In this document: positions 9,729 to 63,992 of the stretch, piece after piece
Position numbering within the stretch: the stretch's first letter is position 1
How the letters are laid out: the number at the start of each line of letters is the position of its first letter
Assembly: GCF_009649845.1 (NCBI RefSeq)
Contig: NZ_WJIE01000002.1
Coordinates: forward strand, 1 to 64,000
Reading direction: 5' to 3'
Origin: Polyangium spumosum
GTDB taxonomy: Bacteria > Myxococcota_A > Polyangia > Polyangiales > Polyangiaceae
DNA length: 64,000 nt
Made by a program: the position numbers and the translations under genes
Notes under the pieces: generated by a model
Told to the model about the DNA's origin: nothing
Databases searched by the model: none
Seen by the model: only the letters and a program-made list of their open reading frames with translations

Positions 9729-12700
9729 TCAGCCCGATAACGACGCCGCGAGCGCCCGCGTTTCCTCGGCCAGCTTGCCCATGTTCGCCGCCTCGAAGAG
9801 GGTGATGCTCTCGTCGAGGAAGCGGTGAGCCTCGGCGAGCGCCGCGCCGTCGCCCTTCGCGCTCGCGTGGAGCACACGCGCCATCGTGCGGCGGGCCGTG
9901 CCGCGCATGTAGGGCGAGCTCACGCGGTCGGCGAGCTCTATGCAGCGCTCGGCGTGCTCCCTCGCCAGGGGGAGCTCGTCGAGCAGGAGGTGGCATTCGG
10001 CGAGGGCGCGGTGCGCCTCGGCGAGGCCACGCAAGGAGCCGAGGCGCTCGTGCAGGACCTTCGCGCGGGAGAGGGTGCGGGCGGCCGCGCGCGCGTCGCC
10101 GCGGGCGAGCTCGAGCTCGCCGACGTTGCTCAGGATGACCGAGCGGTGCTGGACGAGGTCCCAGCGCTCGGTTTGTTCGAGCGCCGCGCGCCAGGTGGAC
10201 TCGGCCAGGTCGAGGCGGCCGCGGAAGTAATGGAGCGCGGCGAGCCCGTTGTAGGCGTCGACGGCCTCGACGGGCGCGTTCGCCGCCATCGCGCGTTCGA
10301 TGGCCCGCTGATAGGTGGGTTCGCCCTCGTCGTATCGGCCCGTGTGCAGAGACCCGTTGCCGAGGACGCGGTAGGCCGAGGAGAGGGCCCGCTCCCATTC
10401 CTGCGTGCGCGTGGCCGCCTCGGCCCTCTCGTGGGATTCGAGCACGCGGCGGAGGCGCTCGGCAGAGGCGCGATGATCCCCGAGGTGCACGCTCGCCCCC
10501 ATCGCGCCCGTGAGCGCCCGGAGCGCGAGCAGGCTCTCGTCCTCGCCGAGCCATTGTTCTGCCTGGACAAACGATTCCCGCGCGTCCGCGTACCTGCCCG
10601 AGTGCTCGAGCGCCCAGCCTTTTTCGATGGCGACGCGGGCCTTCGCGTCGGCGAACGTGGCCCCGTCGCCGGCGCGGGCGAGGGCGTCGTCGGCGACCTC
10701 GAGGGCACGCGCGAGGCTGCCGGCGAGCACGAGCTCGTGCACGAGGGAACCCGTGAGGGAGAGGAGCTCGGAGGTCCGCGTGCTCTCGTCCATCGATGAG
10801 GCGGGCATGTCGAGCAGGATCTCGCGGGCGCCTTCGAGCATCCGGACGGCCTCCTCGATCGCGTGGGTGCGGATCGCGAGCTCGGCCGCGCGCCGCTTGT
10901 ACGGCAGGGCGAGGGCGAGCTCGCCGGCCTCGCGGAAATGGTGGCCGATGAGGTCGTCGTGCGGGCCCGGCGAGCCACCCGTCGCGCGCTCGAGCCAGAG
11001 CGCCGCGGCCCGGTGGAGCGCGCGCCGCCGGGCCTTGGGCACGCGCCGCTGCGCCACCTCCTGCAAGGCCGCCTGCGTGAAGGCATAATCGACCTCGCCG
11101 GCGAGCATGGCGTCGCGTCGCGGGGCGAAGATGCCGCGACGGACGAGCTCGGCGAGCAGGCGCGGCTCGAAGCGGTTTTCGAGGAGCTCGCCGAGCAGCG
11201 ACGGCCAGAACCTGCGGCCCGCGACGGCGGCGGCCTCCACGGCCTCGCTGAGCCTGGGTTCGAGGCGATCGAGGCGGCCGAGGAGGAGCTGCTCGAGCGT
11301 CTCCGGCAGGCGCACGCTCGCCGCCCGCGACGAGGAGAGCCGCCACGCGGCCTCGCCGACGACGAGCACGCCCTCGTCGACGAGCTGGTGCACGGTCTCC
11401 TCGACGATGAGCGGCACGCCGCCCGCGAGCGCCGCGATCTGCCGCACGAGCCCCGCGGGCACGTCGATGAGCGCGCGGAGGACGTGCCGGATGAGCGCCT
11501 CGCAGGCCTCGTCGTCGAGCGGCTCGACCGGGAGCGTGACGACGGGCGAAGGATCTCGGAGGAACGAGGCATCCGGCGCGGCGGCGCCCTCGGCGCGGTG
11601 GACCAGGACGAACAGCGCGGGGCAACCCGCGAGCCGCTCGATCACGTGGCCGAGCAGCGCCTTCGTCGTGGCCGTCGCCCACTCGAAATCCTCGAGCAAA
11701 AAGAGCAGCGGCGTGCGGGTCGCGAGCCTGCGGTAGGCCTCGGCGACGGCGTCGAAGAGGACCTTCTTTTGCGCCTCGTCGCCGGCCACGGTGTCGCGAT
11801 CCGCGGTCACGTCCTCGCCGCCGCCGACGCCGAGCAACGCGCCGAGCCGACGGCCGAGCTCGATCTCGGCCTCGCCGAGCGTCGTGGGATCGACGGCGCA
11901 GTAGCGGCGGATGTAGTGGTCGAGCTTGGCGCGCACCTGCTCGGGGCCGTCGTCGTCGACGACACGCGCGCGGTGGCGGATGGCCTGGAGGAAGGGCTCG
12001 TACGGCAGGCCCTGCCCCGCCGGGGTCGAGCGGCCCATCTCGAAGAAGTAGGCCTCGCCCTCGCGCTCCTCGAGCTCCTCGACGAGCGCCATGCAGAGCC
12101 GGCTCTTGCCCACGCCCGCGGGCCCCGTGACCACGAGGACCTCGGGCCGCCGCTCCATCCGCGCCTGCGCGAGGACGGCGCGCAGGACGGAGAGCTCCTC
12201 GTCACGGCCGATGAGCGAGATCCGGACGCCGTGGATCTCGTTCGTCCCGAGGTACGCGGTCGATTTCTTGGAGGCGACGCGGCGGCCGGGCACGTCGGCG
12301 CCCGCGCTCGGGGTCTCGTAGAGGCCACGTACACGGCGGAGGACGGCGTGCGTCGCGACGACCTCGCCGGGCGCGGCCGCGCGCGCGAGGTTGCGGGCCT
12401 CGAAGACGGGCGCGCCCGAGAGGAAGGGGACGCCGCCGGCACGCGGCTGGGTGGAGACGACGCGGCCAGCGTCGATGCCGAAGCGCACGCCGAGCCGGAA
12501 CGAGGGCGGGAACGTGGGATCCGAGGAGAGCGCGCCGAGGGCGGCGCGCAGCGAGAGGGCCGCGTCGAGGGCGCGCTCGGCGTCGTTCTCGGCGGCGCCC
12601 TCGGGCCCGAAGAGGCAAAGCGCGCGCTCGGTGAAGGGCCCGATGGGCTCGCCCCCGTGACGCGCGAGGACCTGCTCGAGGCGCGCGCCGACGACCGCGA

Positions 12701-13835
12701 GGCAGTCGAGGTGCTCCTCGAGATCCACCGAGGCGTCGAGCGCGCCGAGCGAGAGATCGACGTAGAGGACCGTCGCGCTGCGGACGAGCCGCGCGTCCTT
12801 GGCCTCGCGCCGCGCCCACGCGCCCGAGCCGACGGCCGTGGGGAAAGGCCGCGACGCGCCGTCGAGGAGCGTGGTCGCGCCGGGCAAGGGCGCGAGGGTC
12901 GCATCGGCGCCAACGACGATGGTCTCGGAGAGCTCGATCGGCCCGGACGGCGACGAACCCGCGGACCACTCGGCGACGGAAGCCGGGCCTGCGCCGAGGG
13001 AGCGGAGCTCGCGCAAGAGATCGTGCATGAAGTGCTCGACGGTCTGGTGACGCTCGCCGGGGTTTTTCCGGAGCGCGCGGCCGATGACGGCGTCGATCCC
13101 CGCGGGGATGCCGAGATCGGGGCGGAGGCGCGAAGGCAGGGTGAGCGCGCCTTCGAGGCGCGCGGCGAAGAGGCCGGCGAGGCCGCCGGTCTCATCGAAC
13201 GGGCGCGCGCCGGTGAGCAGCTCGCAAGCCATGATGCCGAGCGCGTAGATGTCGGCGCGCCCGTCCACGTCCTTCGCCTCGATCTGCTCCGGCGCCATGT
13301 ACGCGGGTGTGCCGCTCACCTGGCCGTCGACGGCGAGCTCGGGGCCGCCGTCGAGCCCGAAGGCCTTGGCCACGCCGAAGTCGACGACCTTCACGAAACA
13401 CGCGTCCCCCGCGAGGGACGTGAGGAGCACGTTGCCGGGCTTCAGATCACGATGGACGATCCCGCTCCGGTGGGCCTCGGCGACGGCGCTGCCGACCTGG
13501 GCCATCACGTGGCCGACGAGCGAAGGTTCGAGGCAGCCGACGCGGCGCAGGCGTTCGTCGAGGGACTCGCCGCGCACGTACTCCATCACGATGTAGTGCA
13601 GCTCGGCCGACGCGCTGCCGAAGGCGTGGACCACGACCACGTTCGGGTGGCTCAAGCGCGCGAGCAGGCGCGCCTCGCGGCGGAAACGCGCGTCGGTCTC
13701 GAGGAGCGAGGAGAGCTCGGGGCGGAGGATCTTGATCGCGACGAATCGATCGAGGGCGAGGTCACTCGCGAGCAAGACCTCGCCCATCCCACCCGCGCCG
13801 AGGCGCTTGATGATCTGGTACTTCTGCCCGAGCAC
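9729..13835 (-). CDS. Ser/Thr protein kinase fused to cyclase-like, AAA-ATPase and TPR domains
   Basis: This is a 1,368-residue multidomain signalling protein. Residues 6-270 form an active-looking Hanks kinase: GAGGMGEV P-loop, Lys35 in AIK, HRDLKPGN near 127 and DFG near 151. Residues 350-510 resemble a degenerate class III nucleotide cyclase (VLYVDLSLGALD, FRLGVRFGIDAGRVV). The first metal-binding position is kept, but the rest is poorly conserved. A STAND/AAA-like ATPase follows with Walker A GPAGVGKS near 570 and LLFLLEDFEWA as Walker B near 718. The last 350 residues are TPR repeats. The layout is typical of myxobacterial kinases. No transmembrane segment is seen. Start is GTG 13835; the upstream codons (LTPGT) resemble the usual kinase N-terminus but offer no ATG/GTG. 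Confidence 0.9.
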   Translation of the reverse strand: MLGQKYQIIKRLGAGGMGEVLLASDLALDRFVAIKILRPELSSLLETDARFRREARLLARLSHPNVVVVHAFGSASAELHYIVMEYVRGESLDERLRRVGCLEPSLVGHVMAQVGSAVAEAHRSGIVHRDLKPGNVLLTSLAGDACFVKVVDFGVAKAFGLDGGPELAVDGQVSGTPAYMAPEQIEAKDVDGRADIYALGIMACELLTGARPFDETGGLAGLFAARLEGALTLPSRLRPDLGIPAGIDAVIGRALRKNPGERHQTVEHFMHDLLRELRSLGAGPASVAEWSAGSSPSGPIELSETIVVGADATLAPLPGATTLLDGASRPFPTAVGSGAWARREAKDARLVRSATVLYVDLSLGALDASVDLEEHLDCLAVVGARLEQVLARHGGEPIGPFTERALCLFGPEGAAENDAERALDAALSLRAALGALSSDPTFPPSFRLGVRFGIDAGRVVSTQPRAGGVPFLSGAPVFEARNLARAAAPGEVVATHAVLRRVRGLYETPSAGADVPGRRVASKKSTAYLGTNEIHGVRISLIGRDEELSVLRAVLAQARMERRPEVLVVTGPAGVGKSRLCMALVEELEEREGEAYFFEMGRSTPAGQGLPYEPFLQAIRHRARVVDDDGPEQVRAKLDHYIRRYCAVDPTTLGEAEIELGRRLGALLGVGGGEDVTADRDTVAGDEAQKKVLFDAVAEAYRRLATRTPLLFLLEDFEWATATTKALLGHVIERLAGCPALFVLVHRAEGAAAPDASFLRDPSPVVTLPVEPLDDEACEALIRHVLRALIDVPAGLVRQIAALAGGVPLIVEETVHQLVDEGVLVVGEAAWRLSSSRAASVRLPETLEQLLLGRLDRLEPRLSEAVEAAAVAGRRFWPSLLGELLENRFEPRLLAELVRRGIFAPRRDAMLAGEVDYAFTQAALQEVAQRRVPKARRRALHRAAALWLERATGGSPGPHDDLIGHHFREAGELALALPYKRRAAELAIRTHAIEEAVRMLEGAREILLDMPASSMDESTRTSELLSLTGSLVHELVLAGSLARALEVADDALARAGDGATFADAKARVAIEKGWALEHSGRYADARESFVQAEQWLGEDESLLALRALTGAMGASVHLGDHRASAERLRRVLESHERAEAATRTQEWERALSSAYRVLGNGSLHTGRYDEGEPTYQRAIERAMAANAPVEAVDAYNGLAALHYFRGRLDLAESTWRAALEQTERWDLVQHRSVILSNVGELELARGDARAAARTLSRAKVLHERLGSLRGLAEAHRALAECHLLLDELPLAREHAERCIELADRVSSPYMRGTARRTMARVLHASAKGDGAALAEAHRFLDESITLFEAANMGKLAEETRALAASLSG

Positions 13836-54319: not shown

Positions 54320-54394
54320 CGGGGCGTAGCGCAGCCTGGTTAGCGCACTTGACTGGGGGTCAAGGGGTCGGTGGTTCAAATCCACTCGCCCCGA
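54320..54394 (+). tRNA. tRNA-Pro(GGG)
   Basis: A full cloverleaf folds: acceptor CGGGGCG pairs with CGCCCCG, D-arm contains GCGCAGCCTGGTTAGCGC, anticodon stem CTTGA/TCAAG encloses the loop CTGGGGG with anticodon GGG, and the T-arm is GGTGG-TTCAAAT-CCACT. The discriminator is A. The 3' CCA is not encoded. GGG reads CCC (and CCU) proline codons, common in this GC-rich genome. A strong terminator begins 2 bp later. Confidence 0.95.
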
Positions 54395-54395
54395 C

Positions 54396-56485: not shown

Positions 56486-59400
56486 TCACCGCTTCGTCGC
56501 TGGCCCGCCGAACGCTTCGTCGAGCGAGCGCGCCGGCGGACGGCAATCCCGCGGCCCGAGCTCGACCCGCGCGATTCCCTCCACCGTGAACCGGTGCTCG
56601 ACCCCGCGCGCGTCCCAGACCATCACGCGCCGGATCGCCCCGAGATCCCCCCGCGCGACCAGCACCCGGTCGACCTCGATCCGCGCCCGCGCGCACCCCG
56701 CCCGTTGCTTGCGCGGCACCGCCGCGATCACCGCCATCCACGGCCGCGCCTCCTCCCCCGACACCACCACGTCGAACGCCCGCCCGAGCCCCTCCCCGAG
56801 CAGCGCCGTCAGCGCCACGTACGGCGTCTCCTCGATCGTCGACCGCGTGATCACGTACCCCCGCCGCACCAGCGAGGCCTCGCTCCCGTTCGCGATCAGG
56901 ACCTCCTCCGCCGGATCGTCCGCGAACACCCGCACCACCGGCTCGCCGTCCTCGCCCCGGAACGCGTCGACGAGCTCGGTCGCCTCCTGCCCGCCCTCGC
57001 TCGTCCGGCGCACGGCCGCGCGTAAGGCCAGCGTGCCCGCGTAGAGCGCCCCGAGCGCGCCGACGACATCGCCCACCGGCCCCGCGATCGGCGCCGGGAA
57101 GAGCACACGCGGCGGCGCCTCGGGCGCCTCGTCCCGCGCCCGCCCCGGCGCGAGGCTCGCCTTCGCCGTCCCGCCCTCGTCCTGCCGCTCGAGCAGCAGC
57201 AGCGGGCACGAGAGCCACGGGATCGGCGGCTCCACGCCGAGCGAGGTATCGGGTCGACAAACGGGCGCCGCGTGTGTGCGGATCGCCCGCGTGTTCGCCC
57301 GCTCGAGCGCGCTCTCCGCGGCCTCCGCGCCCACGACCGCGACGGGCTTGCGTGGCGCCGCGGCCGTGGCCCCGGCGAGCGCGCAGAGCCAGGCCAGCCC
57401 CGAGGGATCCAGCGCGCGCAGCGCCTCGCGTGTCTCGGCCGGGATCGACTCGATCCGCGACCCGATCTCCCGGACGAGCCCTCCGTCGTGGGGCTTCATG
57501 GCCGCCCGCACCGCGCTGAGGGCCCGCGCGAGCACCACCTCGCCGCCCCGCGTGTAGGCCTTCTCCAGCAGGCCCCGCGCCTCGTCCTCGTCGGCGCGGA
57601 TGAGCGCGAGGATCCCCGCGCAGCCGAGCAGGAACGGATCCGACCCATCATGCTCGGCGGCCTCGCGCAGGTTCCTCCGGGCGAGCTCGAACGACGCCTC
57701 GCCCGCCGTCACCCCGAACCCTTGCAGCATCGCCGCCACCCGCAGCAGCGCGAGCCCCGCGCGGCCCAGGATCCGCGGCCTCCGCGGGTCGTCCCAGCGC
57801 GCGCGTAACGACGCCTCCGCCAGCGCCGCGCGCGCCTCGTCCACGCGCCCTTCCCGCTCGAGCACACACGAGAGCGAATACGACACGCCCGACAGCAGCG
57901 CGATCAGCCCTGCCCCCGCGTCGAGCCGCAGCCACACCCGCCCGAGCCGCTCGCGCAAAGCAAAAAGCGCCTCGCTCGCGCGCCGCGCCTCCCCGCGTGT
58001 CGCCAGCGTGATCGCGTGCGAGCACTCCGCCGCGCAGAGCGCCGACAGCACCGGCAGGTGCAGGCTCCCCGCGAGACGCGCGCGCACCTCGGCCATCCGC
58101 GCCGCGGCCTCCTCGTGCCTGCCCGCGGCGTCGAGCACCGTCACCTCGTTACACGCCACCGCCGCCGCGATCTCGAAATGGGGCGACTCCTTCACCCCCG
58201 CGAGCCGCTCCCGCAACACGCCGAGCGCCGCGGCCGCCTGCGACGTGTGCCCCGCGAGCCCGAGCGTCGCCGCCGCGTTCGCGGCCCCGAGCACGATCGC
58301 CGCCGCCATCGACGCCGCGGCCGGCGTGTTCGCCCGGCGCGCGAGCTCCATCGCTGCTTCGAGCGCCCGCTCGTGGGCGCCGAGGCGCCCCGCCGAGAAG
58401 ATCGTCCCGCAGAGCGACGCCGCCTCCACGGCGCGAAACCCGATCCCCTCGCGGGCCTGGGCCGCGGCGCAGGCCATCGCGAAATGGTTCACCGCCGTAT
58501 CGTCCCAGCCGAGCTCCTGACAGCACACGCCGGCCGCGTGCGCCGCGTCGACGAGCACCGCCGCGAGCCACGGCGGCTCCTCGACGAGGCGCATCTCCTC
58601 GCCGAGCTCGAGCGCCATCCCGAGGTGCTTGCACGCCTCGGCCCATTGCTCCCGGCCCGCGTGGAATTTGCCCTGACGATACGACGCCAGCAGCACCGAC
58701 GTCAGGAACTCCCGATCCTCGAATCGACGCGGGAAGAACCGCCGGATCACCTCGCTGTACTCGGAGACGCTCGGCTCACCCGACTCGATCGACAGGTCCC
58801 CGAGCGCGACGAGCGCCCGCGCCACTTCCCGCGAGCCGCCCTCGTCGCGCACCTCGCCGCGCGTGATGTCGAGGTACACCTTCCGGGCCGCGCGAACATT
58901 CCCCTCCGCCCGCAGCGCCGCCGCGCGGACGAACGGATCCCCCTCGATGAACCGCACGCTCGGCGGCACCCGTGAAGGCGGCGGCGGCGGCGACGAACCT
59001 CGATCCTCCGCGAACAGCCGCGACGAAGGCGGCGACGAGTCCGGCCCGGATCGCCCCCGCCGCGCCTCGATCGCGGCCCAGAGATCCCGCGAGCTCGGCC
59101 GCGCCGCCTCACCCACGTCGAGCGGGCTCTGTCGCCGGAGACATTGCACGAAGCGCAGATAAGCGTGCGCGAGGCTCTTCGGATCCGCCGTCGACTCGAA
59201 CTCCGCCGCGATCGCCGCGCCCCGCGCGGCCCGCTCGTTCCAGGGGATCGTCGCGAGCCCCAGGTAGGGCCCGAGATCCCGGCCCATCACGTGCGTCGTC
59301 TCGTAGATCAGCCCCTCGAGCTGCTCCTTCGCCTCCTCCACGAACGCGCGCCCGCTCGCCCCCTCCTCCACCCGCACGAGCAGCGGGAAAATCGCGAGCG

Positions 59401-60040
59401 GCCGGCCCGCATCCACGATCCCCCGCCGCGCATGCGCGAACCTCCCAAGCTCGATCGCCTCCTCCAGCGACGCGTCATCCACGAGCAACACGAGCTTGTC
59501 CACGAGGTGAGCAGCGAGCAGCGCCGTCGCCTCCGTCCGGCCCGACGGCACGTTCACCAGCACCTCGTCGTACCGGGCCCGGAGCGCCTGCCCGAGCGGC
59601 GCGAGCAACCACGGGCACTCCTCGATCACCCGCCCCCGCGCCACCGCCGATCGCACCCCTTCCGCCGGCCAGTAATGCACCTCCGCCGGCGCTCCCCCGA
59701 GCTTCAGCGGCACCACCCGGATCCCCGCGCCCTCGAGCAACTGCGTCACGCCCGCGCGCACAGCCGCCTCGGGCGGCGTCTCCCGCGCCCGCCCGAGCGT
59801 CAGCGGCGAGACGGCGGCCCGCACCGCCTCAAAAAAACCAACAACCCCCGCACCCCTGCGGCCCTCACCCCGCCCCTGAAAATATCGCTCCAGCGCAGGC
59901 TCGTCGACGGCCAGGTCCACGACGAGCACACGCTTGCCTTTTTGCGCCAGGAGCGCGCCGACATTGGCCACGGCCATCGCGCGCCCGACACCTCCGCGCG
60001 CCGAAGCGAGCCCGACGATGATCCCCTGCCGCTCGCTCAC
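56486..60040 (-). CDS. ParA-like ATPase with aberrant P-loop fused to helical repeats
   Basis: This is a 1,184-residue protein. The first 300 residues are a MinD/ParA-like domain, but the deviant Walker A KGGxGKT reads SARGGVGRAMAV: both lysines (Arg15, Arg20) and the Thr (Ala21) are replaced. VLVVDLAVDEPALERYFQ and EVLVNVPSG follow. This matches the known KGGVGR-motif variant ATPase group, with an extra change. From about 380 to 900 it is TPR-like helical repeats. The last 180 residues, with FDVVVSGEEARPWMAVIAAV and a beta-rich end, are unrecognised. It stands alone, divergent from arfB, and ends against the peptidoglycan-binding gene. Confidence 0.8.
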   Translation of the reverse strand: MSERQGIIVGLASARGGVGRAMAVANVGALLAQKGKRVLVVDLAVDEPALERYFQGRGEGRRGAGVVGFFEAVRAAVSPLTLGRARETPPEAAVRAGVTQLLEGAGIRVVPLKLGGAPAEVHYWPAEGVRSAVARGRVIEECPWLLAPLGQALRARYDEVLVNVPSGRTEATALLAAHLVDKLVLLVDDASLEEAIELGRFAHARRGIVDAGRPLAIFPLLVRVEEGASGRAFVEEAKEQLEGLIYETTHVMGRDLGPYLGLATIPWNERAARGAAIAAEFESTADPKSLAHAYLRFVQCLRRQSPLDVGEAARPSSRDLWAAIEARRGRSGPDSSPPSSRLFAEDRGSSPPPPPSRVPPSVRFIEGDPFVRAAALRAEGNVRAARKVYLDITRGEVRDEGGSREVARALVALGDLSIESGEPSVSEYSEVIRRFFPRRFEDREFLTSVLLASYRQGKFHAGREQWAEACKHLGMALELGEEMRLVEEPPWLAAVLVDAAHAAGVCCQELGWDDTAVNHFAMACAAAQAREGIGFRAVEAASLCGTIFSAGRLGAHERALEAAMELARRANTPAAASMAAAIVLGAANAAATLGLAGHTSQAAAALGVLRERLAGVKESPHFEIAAAVACNEVTVLDAAGRHEEAAARMAEVRARLAGSLHLPVLSALCAAECSHAITLATRGEARRASEALFALRERLGRVWLRLDAGAGLIALLSGVSYSLSCVLEREGRVDEARAALAEASLRARWDDPRRPRILGRAGLALLRVAAMLQGFGVTAGEASFELARRNLREAAEHDGSDPFLLGCAGILALIRADEDEARGLLEKAYTRGGEVVLARALSAVRAAMKPHDGGLVREIGSRIESIPAETREALRALDPSGLAWLCALAGATAAAPRKPVAVVGAEAAESALERANTRAIRTHAAPVCRPDTSLGVEPPIPWLSCPLLLLERQDEGGTAKASLAPGRARDEAPEAPPRVLFPAPIAGPVGDVVGALGALYAGTLALRAAVRRTSEGGQEATELVDAFRGEDGEPVVRVFADDPAEEVLIANGSEASLVRRGYVITRSTIEETPYVALTALLGEGLGRAFDVVVSGEEARPWMAVIAAVPRKQRAGCARARIEVDRVLVARGDLGAIRRVMVWDARGVEHRFTVEGIARVELGPRDCRPPARSLDEAFGGPATKR

Positions 60041-62404: not shown

Positions 62405-63172
62405 TCAGCCGGGGGTGGTGATTTCGGGCGTCGCGGGGGGTTGCGGGCTGCTGCCGCGCCGGGCGGCGGCTTCGCGGTATGCGTCGAGGGGGCGGAGGGC
62501 GGATCGAGCGGCGCTGATGCTGGAGGGGTCGTCCTCGTCGACGGAGGCGCAGACCTTGGTGGCGTAATCGACGATGGCGCGGCCCATGGCGCGGACGTGG
62601 TCGTTGAGGTTCACGCCCTCGGCCTGCTCGCGGAGGAGGATGCCCTGGACCATGCCGCCATATTGCTCATGCTGGGCGCGGATGTTGTCGAGATAGATTT
62701 TCCCGGCGATCCGATCGATGTCCTTTTCGAGCCCCTCCTCGTCGATGCGCTTGAGGATGGTATCGGCGGTGGACCATTGCACCGGATAGGTCTCCTTGAG
62801 GAAGGAGAGGCCCTCGGGGCCAAAAAGAATGGTGACGAGCTCGGCGGCGCGTTTGGCGTCGGGATACGTGGCGCCTGGCAGCTCGGCGGCGCCGAGGAGG
62901 CGCAGGCGAAGCGCGCTCCAGGAGGAATCCCCCGCCTGATCGACGAGTCGCGCGGTGTCGTCGGAGACCTTGCCGAGGGCCTTCTGCCGGAGCGCGAGCG
63001 CCGATTGTGCCTTGTCGGCGGCGACGTTGACCTTTGCGGCGGCCTTCTGGATGGCCGGCGAGAAGCTCTGGACGCAGGCCGCGAAGAGGGCGCGGGAGAG
63101 GGTAATGCCGGCCTCGGCGCTCATGACGGGGGCGCGGACGTAGAGGGTGGGATCGGGAGGGGCGTGAGACAT
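62405..63172 (-). CDS. Hypothetical helical protein
   Basis: I do not recognise this 255-residue protein. It has no signal peptide or membrane helix. Most of it is predicted helix by eye (SRALFAACVQSFSPAIQKAA, ALRLRLLGAAELPGATYPDA, VNLNDHVRAMGRAIVDYATK), with Ala-rich amphipathic segments and an ordered middle (AELVTILFGPEGLSFLKETY). The last 20 residues are Pro/Ser/Thr-rich. The start at 63172 is the first ATG. It may be cytoplasmic and oligomeric. The gene is followed by the repeat-rich gap near the STAS gene. Confidence 0.65.
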   Translation of the reverse strand: MSHAPPDPTLYVRAPVMSAEAGITLSRALFAACVQSFSPAIQKAAAKVNVAADKAQSALALRQKALGKVSDDTARLVDQAGDSSWSALRLRLLGAAELPGATYPDAKRAAELVTILFGPEGLSFLKETYPVQWSTADTILKRIDEEGLEKDIDRIAGKIYLDNIRAQHEQYGGMVQGILLREQAEGVNLNDHVRAMGRAIVDYATKVCASVDEDDPSSISAARSALRPLDAYREAAARRGSSPQPPATPEITTPG

Positions 63173-63275: not shown

Positions 63276-63992
63276 TCAGCGCATGGCGTGATGCTCGAAG
63301 ACGTTCGAGATGTCGTCCGGGTCCGGCGCGATGTTCTTCACGTCCCCCGTGGTGATGTCGATCGTGACATAACCGAGGTTGGTGAATACGTAGTACTCGT
63401 TCTTCCCCGGGTCGATGCCTCCGCGAGCGTTGTGCGACGTGACGGTCGGGATGGCCTTGATCGGGGTATAGGCGCCCGTCTGCATGTCCAGCGTCCCGAA
63501 CGCGAATTCGAGGGTGTCGGGGTTGCGGAGGAGGCCATATATCGTGCCTGTGATCGGGTGGAGCTCGTGGGCCGACACGTCGTCCACGTCCGGCGCGACG
63601 TGGGTGATGAGGCCCGTGCTCACGTCGATCGTCAGCCAGCCGAGGTTCGTCCTCAAATAGAAGCTCTTGCCGGTCGGATCGATCCCGGGCGCGTCCGAGA
63701 GGAGCTGCACGCCGGGGAGCGTGTTGATGCTGGAAAAGACCCCGGTCGCAGGATCGAGGGTGCCGAAATGCTCCTCGGAGGCCGCGGCGTCCCACCGCAC
63801 GCCATAAAGGACCCCTGTGATGGGGTGGGCACGCACCGTGTAGCTCTCCCACGCGGGGGAGACATCAACGACGCCGCCGGTTTTCACGTCAATCGCGAGC
63901 TGGCCGACGTTCGTCTGGACGTAGAATCGACCGTTCACGGAGTCGAGCACCATCGGGTCACCGACGGACAGGACACCGGGGAGGATGCTCAT
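63276..63992 (-). CDS. Hypothetical protein with three internal repeats, possibly truncated at the window edge
   Basis: At least 238 residues. Three copies of a repeat of about 65-75 residues follow one another, each with a pattern like GRFYVQTNVGQLAIDVKTG, then AHPITGVLYGV, then HFGTLDPATG. The recurrent line is TNLGWLTIDVSTGLI or TNLGYVTIDITTGDV. The blades resemble beta-propeller or YVTN-type repeats. The ATG at 63992 is only 8 bp from the end of the window and the frame is open beyond it, so the real start may lie outside and more repeats may be missing. The protein ends in ISNVFEHHAMR. Confidence 0.7.
   Translation of the reverse strand: MSILPGVLSVGDPMVLDSVNGRFYVQTNVGQLAIDVKTGGVVDVSPAWESYTVRAHPITGVLYGVRWDAAASEEHFGTLDPATGVFSSINTLPGVQLLSDAPGIDPTGKSFYLRTNLGWLTIDVSTGLITHVAPDVDDVSAHELHPITGTIYGLLRNPDTLEFAFGTLDMQTGAYTPIKAIPTVTSHNARGGIDPGKNEYYVFTNLGYVTIDITTGDVKNIAPDPDDISNVFEHHAMR

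Follow-up and report, generated by a model that had tools for sequence, protein, structure and literature searches.

Domains of the MinD/ParA type that are predicted to be inactive have been described in the conflict systems of multicellular bacteria (PMC7159879), and TadZ, an atypical ParA-like protein, has been described to act as a polar hub (PMC6668835). Since both are on record, an inactive MinD-like domain is already known in kind. Here we describe a gene in which such a domain is joined to a predicted LolA fold, a fusion that was met neither in our word searches of the literature nor, within their limits, in our scans of genomes outside Polyangium. The gene lies in a stretch of 64,000 nt (the window) at the beginning of contig NZ_WJIE01000002.1 of Polyangium spumosum. 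The original prediction, which was made from the sequence of the window alone, had placed at 56486-60040 on the minus strand an open reading frame (ORF) for a giant ParA-like protein with both P-loop lysines replaced, and the ORF was found exactly there. The results showed that the degenerate MinD/ParA-like domain is under stronger constraint than any other part of the protein. As best explanation we tentatively propose a pseudo-ATPase scaffold in the cytosol, with TPR-like repeats and a pocket for a hydrophobic ligand. The features of the gene are as follows.

56486..60040, minus strand: whole gene, a MinD-like / TPR-like / LolA-like fusion of 1184 aa with a GTG start
59111..60040, minus strand: MinD/ParA-like (KGGVGR-type) domain with a degenerate active site, residues 1-310
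59972..60004, minus strand: degenerate, deviant Walker A segment SARGGVGRAMA, residues 13-23, placed by alignment to MinD
59903..59917, minus strand: switch I segment DLAVD, residues 42-46, with Ala44 at the place of MinD Asp40
59534..59572, minus strand: Walker B segment YDEVLVNVPSGRT, residues 157-169, with Asn163 in place of Asp
58943..59110, minus strand: Pro/Ser-rich linker, residues 311-366, with a ratio of nonsynonymous to synonymous substitution rates (dN/dS) of 0.31-0.56 against five orthologues
57341..58942, minus strand: Ala/Leu-rich, probably helical TPR-like repeats, residues 367-900, assigned by reading
56516..57073, minus strand: predicted LolA fold, residues 990-1175, from profile comparison and a predicted model

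Residues 1-310 matched the Pfam model CbiA with an E value of 5.6e-7 and 30.0 bits, above the cut-off of 25.4, and their best match in NCBIfam was NF047398, the KGGVGR-motif variant AAA ATPase (E 1.7e-13). The score to NF047398 was 51.3 bits against a curated cut-off of 90, and in place of the KGGVGR motif itself there is RGGVGR in the orthologues and RSDAGR in the paralogues, which form the second copy of the gene described below. The family profile (alignment A2, which omits the orthologue L004) matched the MinD structure 3q9l with an E value of 1e-6, in two stretches. Judged by these matches, the domain belongs to the MinD/ParA group, with the KGGVGR variant family as its nearest relative. 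In the alignment to 3q9l, which we take to be the D40A mutant of MinD, the residues K11, K16 and T17 correspond to R15, R20 and A21. Both P-loop lysines are replaced, as had been predicted, each by Arg, and the Thr by Ala; the reading of the segment as ARGG was right about the loss of Lys and is corrected in detail, since it is R that fills the first-lysine position and A that precedes it. The loop reads SARGGVGRAMA identically in 6/6 orthologues and SARSDAGRAMA in 6/6 paralogues.

Two further losses, A44 and Asn163, had not been noticed in the original prediction. The segment DLAVD is invariant in the 11 members of the full-length alignment (both copies, with the split paralogue of genome G005 omitted); relatives have D-x-D there, and the 3q9l chain reads DFAIG at the Asp40 position. 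The Asp position of Walker B is Asn163 in 6/6 orthologues. R15, G19, R20, A21 and A44 are invariant across all 11 full-length members of both copies, and the residue set of MinD/ParA proteins (two Walker A lysines, Thr and switch-I Asp) is replaced throughout, by R15, R20, A21 and A44. The codon-position GC of the 1184-aa ORF is 0.78/0.55/0.92. An in-frame stop stands shortly 5' of the GTG, with 10 codons between the two, and GK[ST] occurs nowhere else in the 1184-aa protein. Because of this stop and the lack of another GK[ST], neither a start error nor a second P-loop can rescue the motif, and a mis-set start with an intact P-loop close by, which had been named as a reason for doubt, was rejected.

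We read the same positions in 23 loci outside the Polyangium clade, of which 17 were classed by reading as KGGVGR type, a class for which the motif itself is part of the definition; the other 6 are other ParA/MinD kinds (L011, L013, L015, L047, L048 and L053). Excluded from this reading were L045, L049-L051 and L054-L057, and many further matches had no locus. The second Walker A lysine is Arg in 17/17 KGGVGR-type relatives, so that Arg at this place characterises the KGGVGR family as a whole and does not count as a separate loss. The first Lys is kept in 15 of the 17; L014 and L100, both of KGGVGR type, read FRGGAGRT, with Arg at the signature Lys and with Thr and Asp kept. As all 17 retain both the Thr/Ser and the switch-I Asp, the losses of Thr and Asp distinguish the Polyangium clade within the KGGVGR family. 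This alignment of the P-loop across relatives was a check named with the prediction, together with the proviso that canonical homologues throughout would imply a local mutation; the homologues are not all canonical, and orthologues and paralogues carry the same loss. Some of the loci have features of their own. Further on, L014 reads GSKGSGKT, like a second P-loop domain. L011, from another genome of the order, has a 584-aa frame with J-domain-like and RodZ-like stretches by eye. In Polyangium, the 906-aa ORF of L032 reads KGGQGRS and the 873-aa ORF of L040 reads KGGQTRS, with 77 and 75 bits to NF047398, under the cut-off.

Against the five orthologues, the window gene as a whole had a dN/dS of 0.29-0.35. 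By part, residues 1-310 gave 0.138-0.188, the helical part 0.289-0.343, the LolA-like domain 0.310-0.452 and the linkers 0.31-0.72. Among the paralogues the values were 0.117-0.175 for the N-terminal domain, 0.170-0.252 for the helical part and 0.337-0.395 for the LolA-like domain; the exception is the short linker (residues 311-366) of the L018 paralogue, which gave 0.154, below the 0.175 of its N-terminal domain. The P-loop codons of the paralogues carry silent changes only (6/6). Because constraint on the protein is strongest in the degenerate domain (0.14-0.19), we concluded that the catalytic loss is not decay.

The C-terminal domain, which had been left as unknown in the original prediction, is predicted to have a LolA fold by profile comparison, model, Foldseek and VIA-align. 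BLAST connected it to LolA-like proteins of the family with E values of 1e-8 to 7e-7, one of which scores PF03548 at 6.3e-22, and hhalign against LolA-like lipoproteins of the family gave a prob of 98 and an E value of 1.5e-13 over 175 columns. An AlphaFold2 (AF2) model, for which the alignment contained 11 family members and no LolA, reached a best pLDDT of 76. LolA accounted for each of the 20 best Foldseek matches in the PDB (best E 1.6e-8), several of which are different chains of a single entry, and VIA-align against Rickettsia bellii LolA gave a Z of 13.5 and an rmsd of 3.7 with 166 aligned. A search of the PDB sequences with the C-terminal family profile gave nothing significant (best E 1.1). 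The family profile also found LolA-like ORFs with lipoprotein-type N-termini by eye, L091 in the same genome and L082 and L086 elsewhere, and the domain probably derives from a myxobacterial LolA-like lipoprotein.

For the middle region, the TPR models matched at E<=0.1 among the 11 members were TPR_8 (two), TPR_14 (two), TPR_12 (one) and TPR_16 (one), and the hydropathy autocorrelation showed no clear period common to both copies. The roughly 500 residues of helical repeats that had been predicted are plausible by eye; the TPR profiles lend weak support. No signal peptide was seen by eye or by hydropathy; the protein begins MSERQGIIVGLASARGG, and none of its five most hydrophobic stretches lies before residue 578. 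Because the hydropathy gives no signal peptide and the hydrophobic stretches are not matched at a value above 1.6 in the paralogue, the whole protein would be cytosolic.

The gene is present as one open frame in 6/6 Polyangium genomes searched. The five other orthologues are 79-81% identical to it; the named relatives, P. fumosum and three Polyangium strains, show 77-80% identity. A second copy, the paralogue, is also present in 6/6 genomes and is 37-38% identical in the five complete ones; that of the sixth genome (G005) is divided between two contigs (L019 and L022). The paralogue frame has TTG at the same place in 6/6 with GGAGGG directly before it, and this TTG was taken as the start. In a quick tree rooted on outsiders, both Polyangium copies cluster together with a stem support of 1.000. 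Since both copies occur in 6/6 genomes and have their losses in common, the duplication probably predates the split of the six Polyangium species.

A contig scan with the single protein sequence gave no match, and one with the 11-member alignment gave 8 loci, all Polyangium, which were not counted as extra species. The profile scans were non-exhaustive, with few first-look candidates scored per genome (at most 19 and 7 for the N-terminal profile in the order and the phylum, and at most 26 for the C-terminal profile in the order). With the N-terminal profile, 5 of 115 genomes of the order matched at E<=1e-8; four were Polyangium, with the whole profile covered, and the fifth had a KGGTGRT protein matching 52 profile positions only. 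In the phylum, 8 of 282 genomes matched at E<=1e-7, and the match covered the whole profile in the genome of the window only. The C-terminal profile gave 18 matches at E<=1e-4 in 10 of 115 genomes of the order: 8 are the fusions of Polyangium, and the other 10, in ORFs of 235-596 aa, were taken as standalone LolA-like proteins. Within the limits of these scans, no fusion was found outside Polyangium in 111 genomes of the order by either half, nor, by the N-terminal half, in the 281 genomes of the phylum besides that of the window. PHROGs gave no match at 1e-3. The fusion gene probably has a single origin, in the Polyangium lineage, and it probably combines a KGGVGR-type domain with a relative of the local LolA-like lipoprotein minus its signal peptide.

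The flanks match those of the window in 4/4 named Polyangium loci, with ArfB, a SnoaL-type lipoprotein and a STAS protein on one side, and a peptidoglycan-binding/TIGR02594 protein, a GAF protein, a protein of 232 aa and an ORF that looks glycosyltransferase-like by eye on the other. The window ORFs at 62405-63172 and 63276-63992 had no match in the compared Polyangium flanks. No vWA, MoxR or VMAP gene was found among the 9 window ORFs scanned, the other window ORFs being viewed by eye only. PADLOC-DB gave no full-length match of the window protein; the sole match was PDC-M28B at residues 11-51, the P-loop, with an E value of 1.8e-7. With ordinary syntenic neighbours and a PADLOC match to the P-loop only, the defence role suggested by the original prediction is not borne out at this locus. 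Elsewhere in the window there are a tRNA-Pro(ggg) gene at 54320-54395 and, at 9729-13835 on the minus strand, a 1368-aa ORF whose N-terminus is Ser/Thr kinase-like by eye. The paralogue has as neighbours the genes of a vWA protein, a TPR-YbjN protein and a methyltransferase, followed by these two genes.

L075 12723-14171, minus strand: ThsA-like SIR2-STALD gene, near the second copy
L075 14204-15670, plus strand: SLOG-phosphorylase gene, back to back with the ThsA-like gene

The ThsA-like gene (PADLOC E 5.9e-132) is 0.7 kb from the paralogue. The pair is matched in 3 of the 4 other Polyangium loci at 82-89% identity, and in the compared stretch of P. fumosum L063 neither of the two genes was matched.

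In the scaffold that we tentatively prefer, the MinD/ParA-like domain would be without hydrolysis (R15, R20, A21, A44 and N163), would either be nucleotide-free or hold nucleotide without cleaving it, and would probably serve as a dimerisation or partner-docking module under strong selection. The TPR-like middle would bind client proteins, and the LolA fold may accommodate a hydrophobic ligand (an acyl chain or a lipid, for example) that alters the binding of the scaffold. We suggest such a ligand because hydrophobic-ligand binding is described as unifying the LolA superfamily, in which VioE appears to be a cytosolic case (PMC6363788). A more specific form, in which the LolA pocket, normally that of a periplasmic carrier, has moved to the cytosol and joined a MinD-derived dimer that has ceased to cycle ATP, and in which the ligand, not hydrolysis, sets the place or partners of the scaffold, is conceivable and rather unlikely taken by itself. 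For the active site, the D40A protein of Escherichia coli MinD has been called hydrolysis-deficient, and the signature Lys is described to contact the ATP of the partner (PMC6803595). The lost hydrolysis and the scaffold or switch role in the original prediction fit these results, with A44 as the match of D40A and N163 in addition; what does not stand is the second-lysine Arg as a loss of its own.

Several observations weigh against this explanation. The Walker B Asp is still present in the paralogue (6/6). Among the ParA/MinD loci of other kinds, the MinD-like L011 has RGGVGTT with Ala at the Asp40 place (the remaining 5 of the 6 keep the Asp), and because it shares similar losses, the catalytic losses are not unique to the clade in the wider group. 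The AF2 model of the N-terminal domain (11 sequences) reached a pLDDT of only 42 and was not used, so that the fold of this domain is assigned by sequence. Despite lacking the signature Lys, McdA is described as a strong ATPase (PMC6328274). The TPR models matched a minority of the members, and hhalign against TPRs gave a prob of 5 and an E value of 0.007. The LolA-like domain is among the less constrained parts by dN/dS; alone it scores 13.1 bits (E 0.081) to PF03548, below the cut-off of 23.6, and the C-terminal domain of the paralogue had no match to Pfam LolA. The five AF2 models of the C-terminal domain span pLDDT 49 to 76, and the Foldseek TM by query is modest (0.46-0.59). Finally, 19-residue stretches at 578, 709 and 992 reach hydropathies of 1.63-1.75, and the protein may have a membrane-spanning form. 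For the most hydrophobic of them, the corresponding position of the paralogue (604) has a value of 1.27, no stretch above 1.6 stands at the matching places among the five best of the paralogue, and the stretch at 992 coincides with helix 1 of the LolA model; because of the value of 1.27 and the LolA helix, we read these stretches as buried helices.

We favour a scaffold or sensor, and next in rank, though on the doubtful side, comes a locked switch that still binds ATP and through A44 forms a permanent ATP dimer. A44, present in 11/11 members, equals the D40A change of MinD, which in Bacillus subtilis was designed to block hydrolysis and is described to act as a locked, stable ATP-bound dimer (PMC13246001), and R20, being common to 17/17 KGGVGR-type relatives, is no new loss; however, R15 and A21 are also changed, the paralogue has lost the GG of the loop as well (SDAG), and the K16A change in the MinD of B. 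subtilis is described to disrupt ATP binding (PMC13246001). That mutant concerns Ala, and here, as throughout the KGGVGR family, the residue is Arg, which again speaks against our own explanation. An NTPase that is altered but still active, by a non-canonical chemistry, would accord with the strong constraint on the domain and with McdA, described as highly active without the signature Lys (PMC6328274); we hold it to be quite improbable, as four positions beyond the family trait, R15, A21, A44 and N163, are changed together in the orthologues.

A component of a conflict system, with the inactive MinD/ParA-like domain as a decoy or effector module in anti-phage immunity, seems improbable too, if a little less so than the altered NTPase. 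Predicted-inactive MinD/ParA-like domains are described in VMAP systems and with a peptide-processing AP-ATPase (PMC7159879), and the ThsA-like SIR2-STALD gene near the paralogue recurs in 3/4 other loci; but it is unmatched in the P. fumosum stretch, no vWA, MoxR or VMAP gene was seen alongside the window gene among its ordinary, syntenic neighbours, the PADLOC match is to the P-loop only, and presence in 6/6 genomes is unlike a patchy defence island. We keep defence in view above all for the paralogue, because the ThsA-like gene is near it and inactive domains of this kind are described in conflict systems. A decaying gene or a local mutation is hardly credible: several catalytic residues are gone, but the same residues are found in 6/6 species, dN/dS is low (0.14-0.19) and the frames run to about 1,200 residues, and on these grounds a local mutation or pseudogene was rejected.

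The closest known family is NF047398, the best NCBIfam match, which has Arg at the second Lys and supplies the nearest matches outside the genus; unlike it, the window protein is changed at the first Lys, the Thr, the switch-I Asp and, in the orthologues, the Walker B Asp, and is fused to a LolA-like domain. A word search of the open literature for the term KGGVGR gave nothing, and such searches did not find a MinD-LolA fusion, by which its absence from print is not established. The profile also matches 3q9l and related structures of MinD and ParA, the SIMIBI Walker A cytoskeletal ATPases, but the window protein is without their intact catalytic motif. To our knowledge, neither TadZ nor McdA has TPR-like or LolA parts. 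Both resemble the window protein as ParA-like proteins with an atypical Walker A, McdA lacking the signature Lys; they differ in that McdA is described as active (PMC6328274) and TadZ as retaining ATP binding with low activity (PMC6668835). For the VMAP systems of multicellular bacteria, too, multidomain proteins with MinD/ParA-like domains predicted to be inactive are described (PMC7159879), a likeness by description, and no vWA-MoxR-VMAP genes were seen beside the window gene. The gene offers a clear example from nature of a MinD/ParA-type switch that is catalytically dismantled and yet the most conserved domain of its protein, in two copies per genome, and thus a defined system for asking what such domains do apart from hydrolysis. 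With LolA, LolB, RseB and VioE it shares the predicted C-terminal fold, and it differs from the LolA family in being fused to a MinD-like domain, in having no signal peptide by eye and in scoring below the PF03548 cut-off; for the placement of a predicted LolA fold inside a multidomain protein that is apparently cytosolic, we met no precedent other than VioE (PMC6363788).

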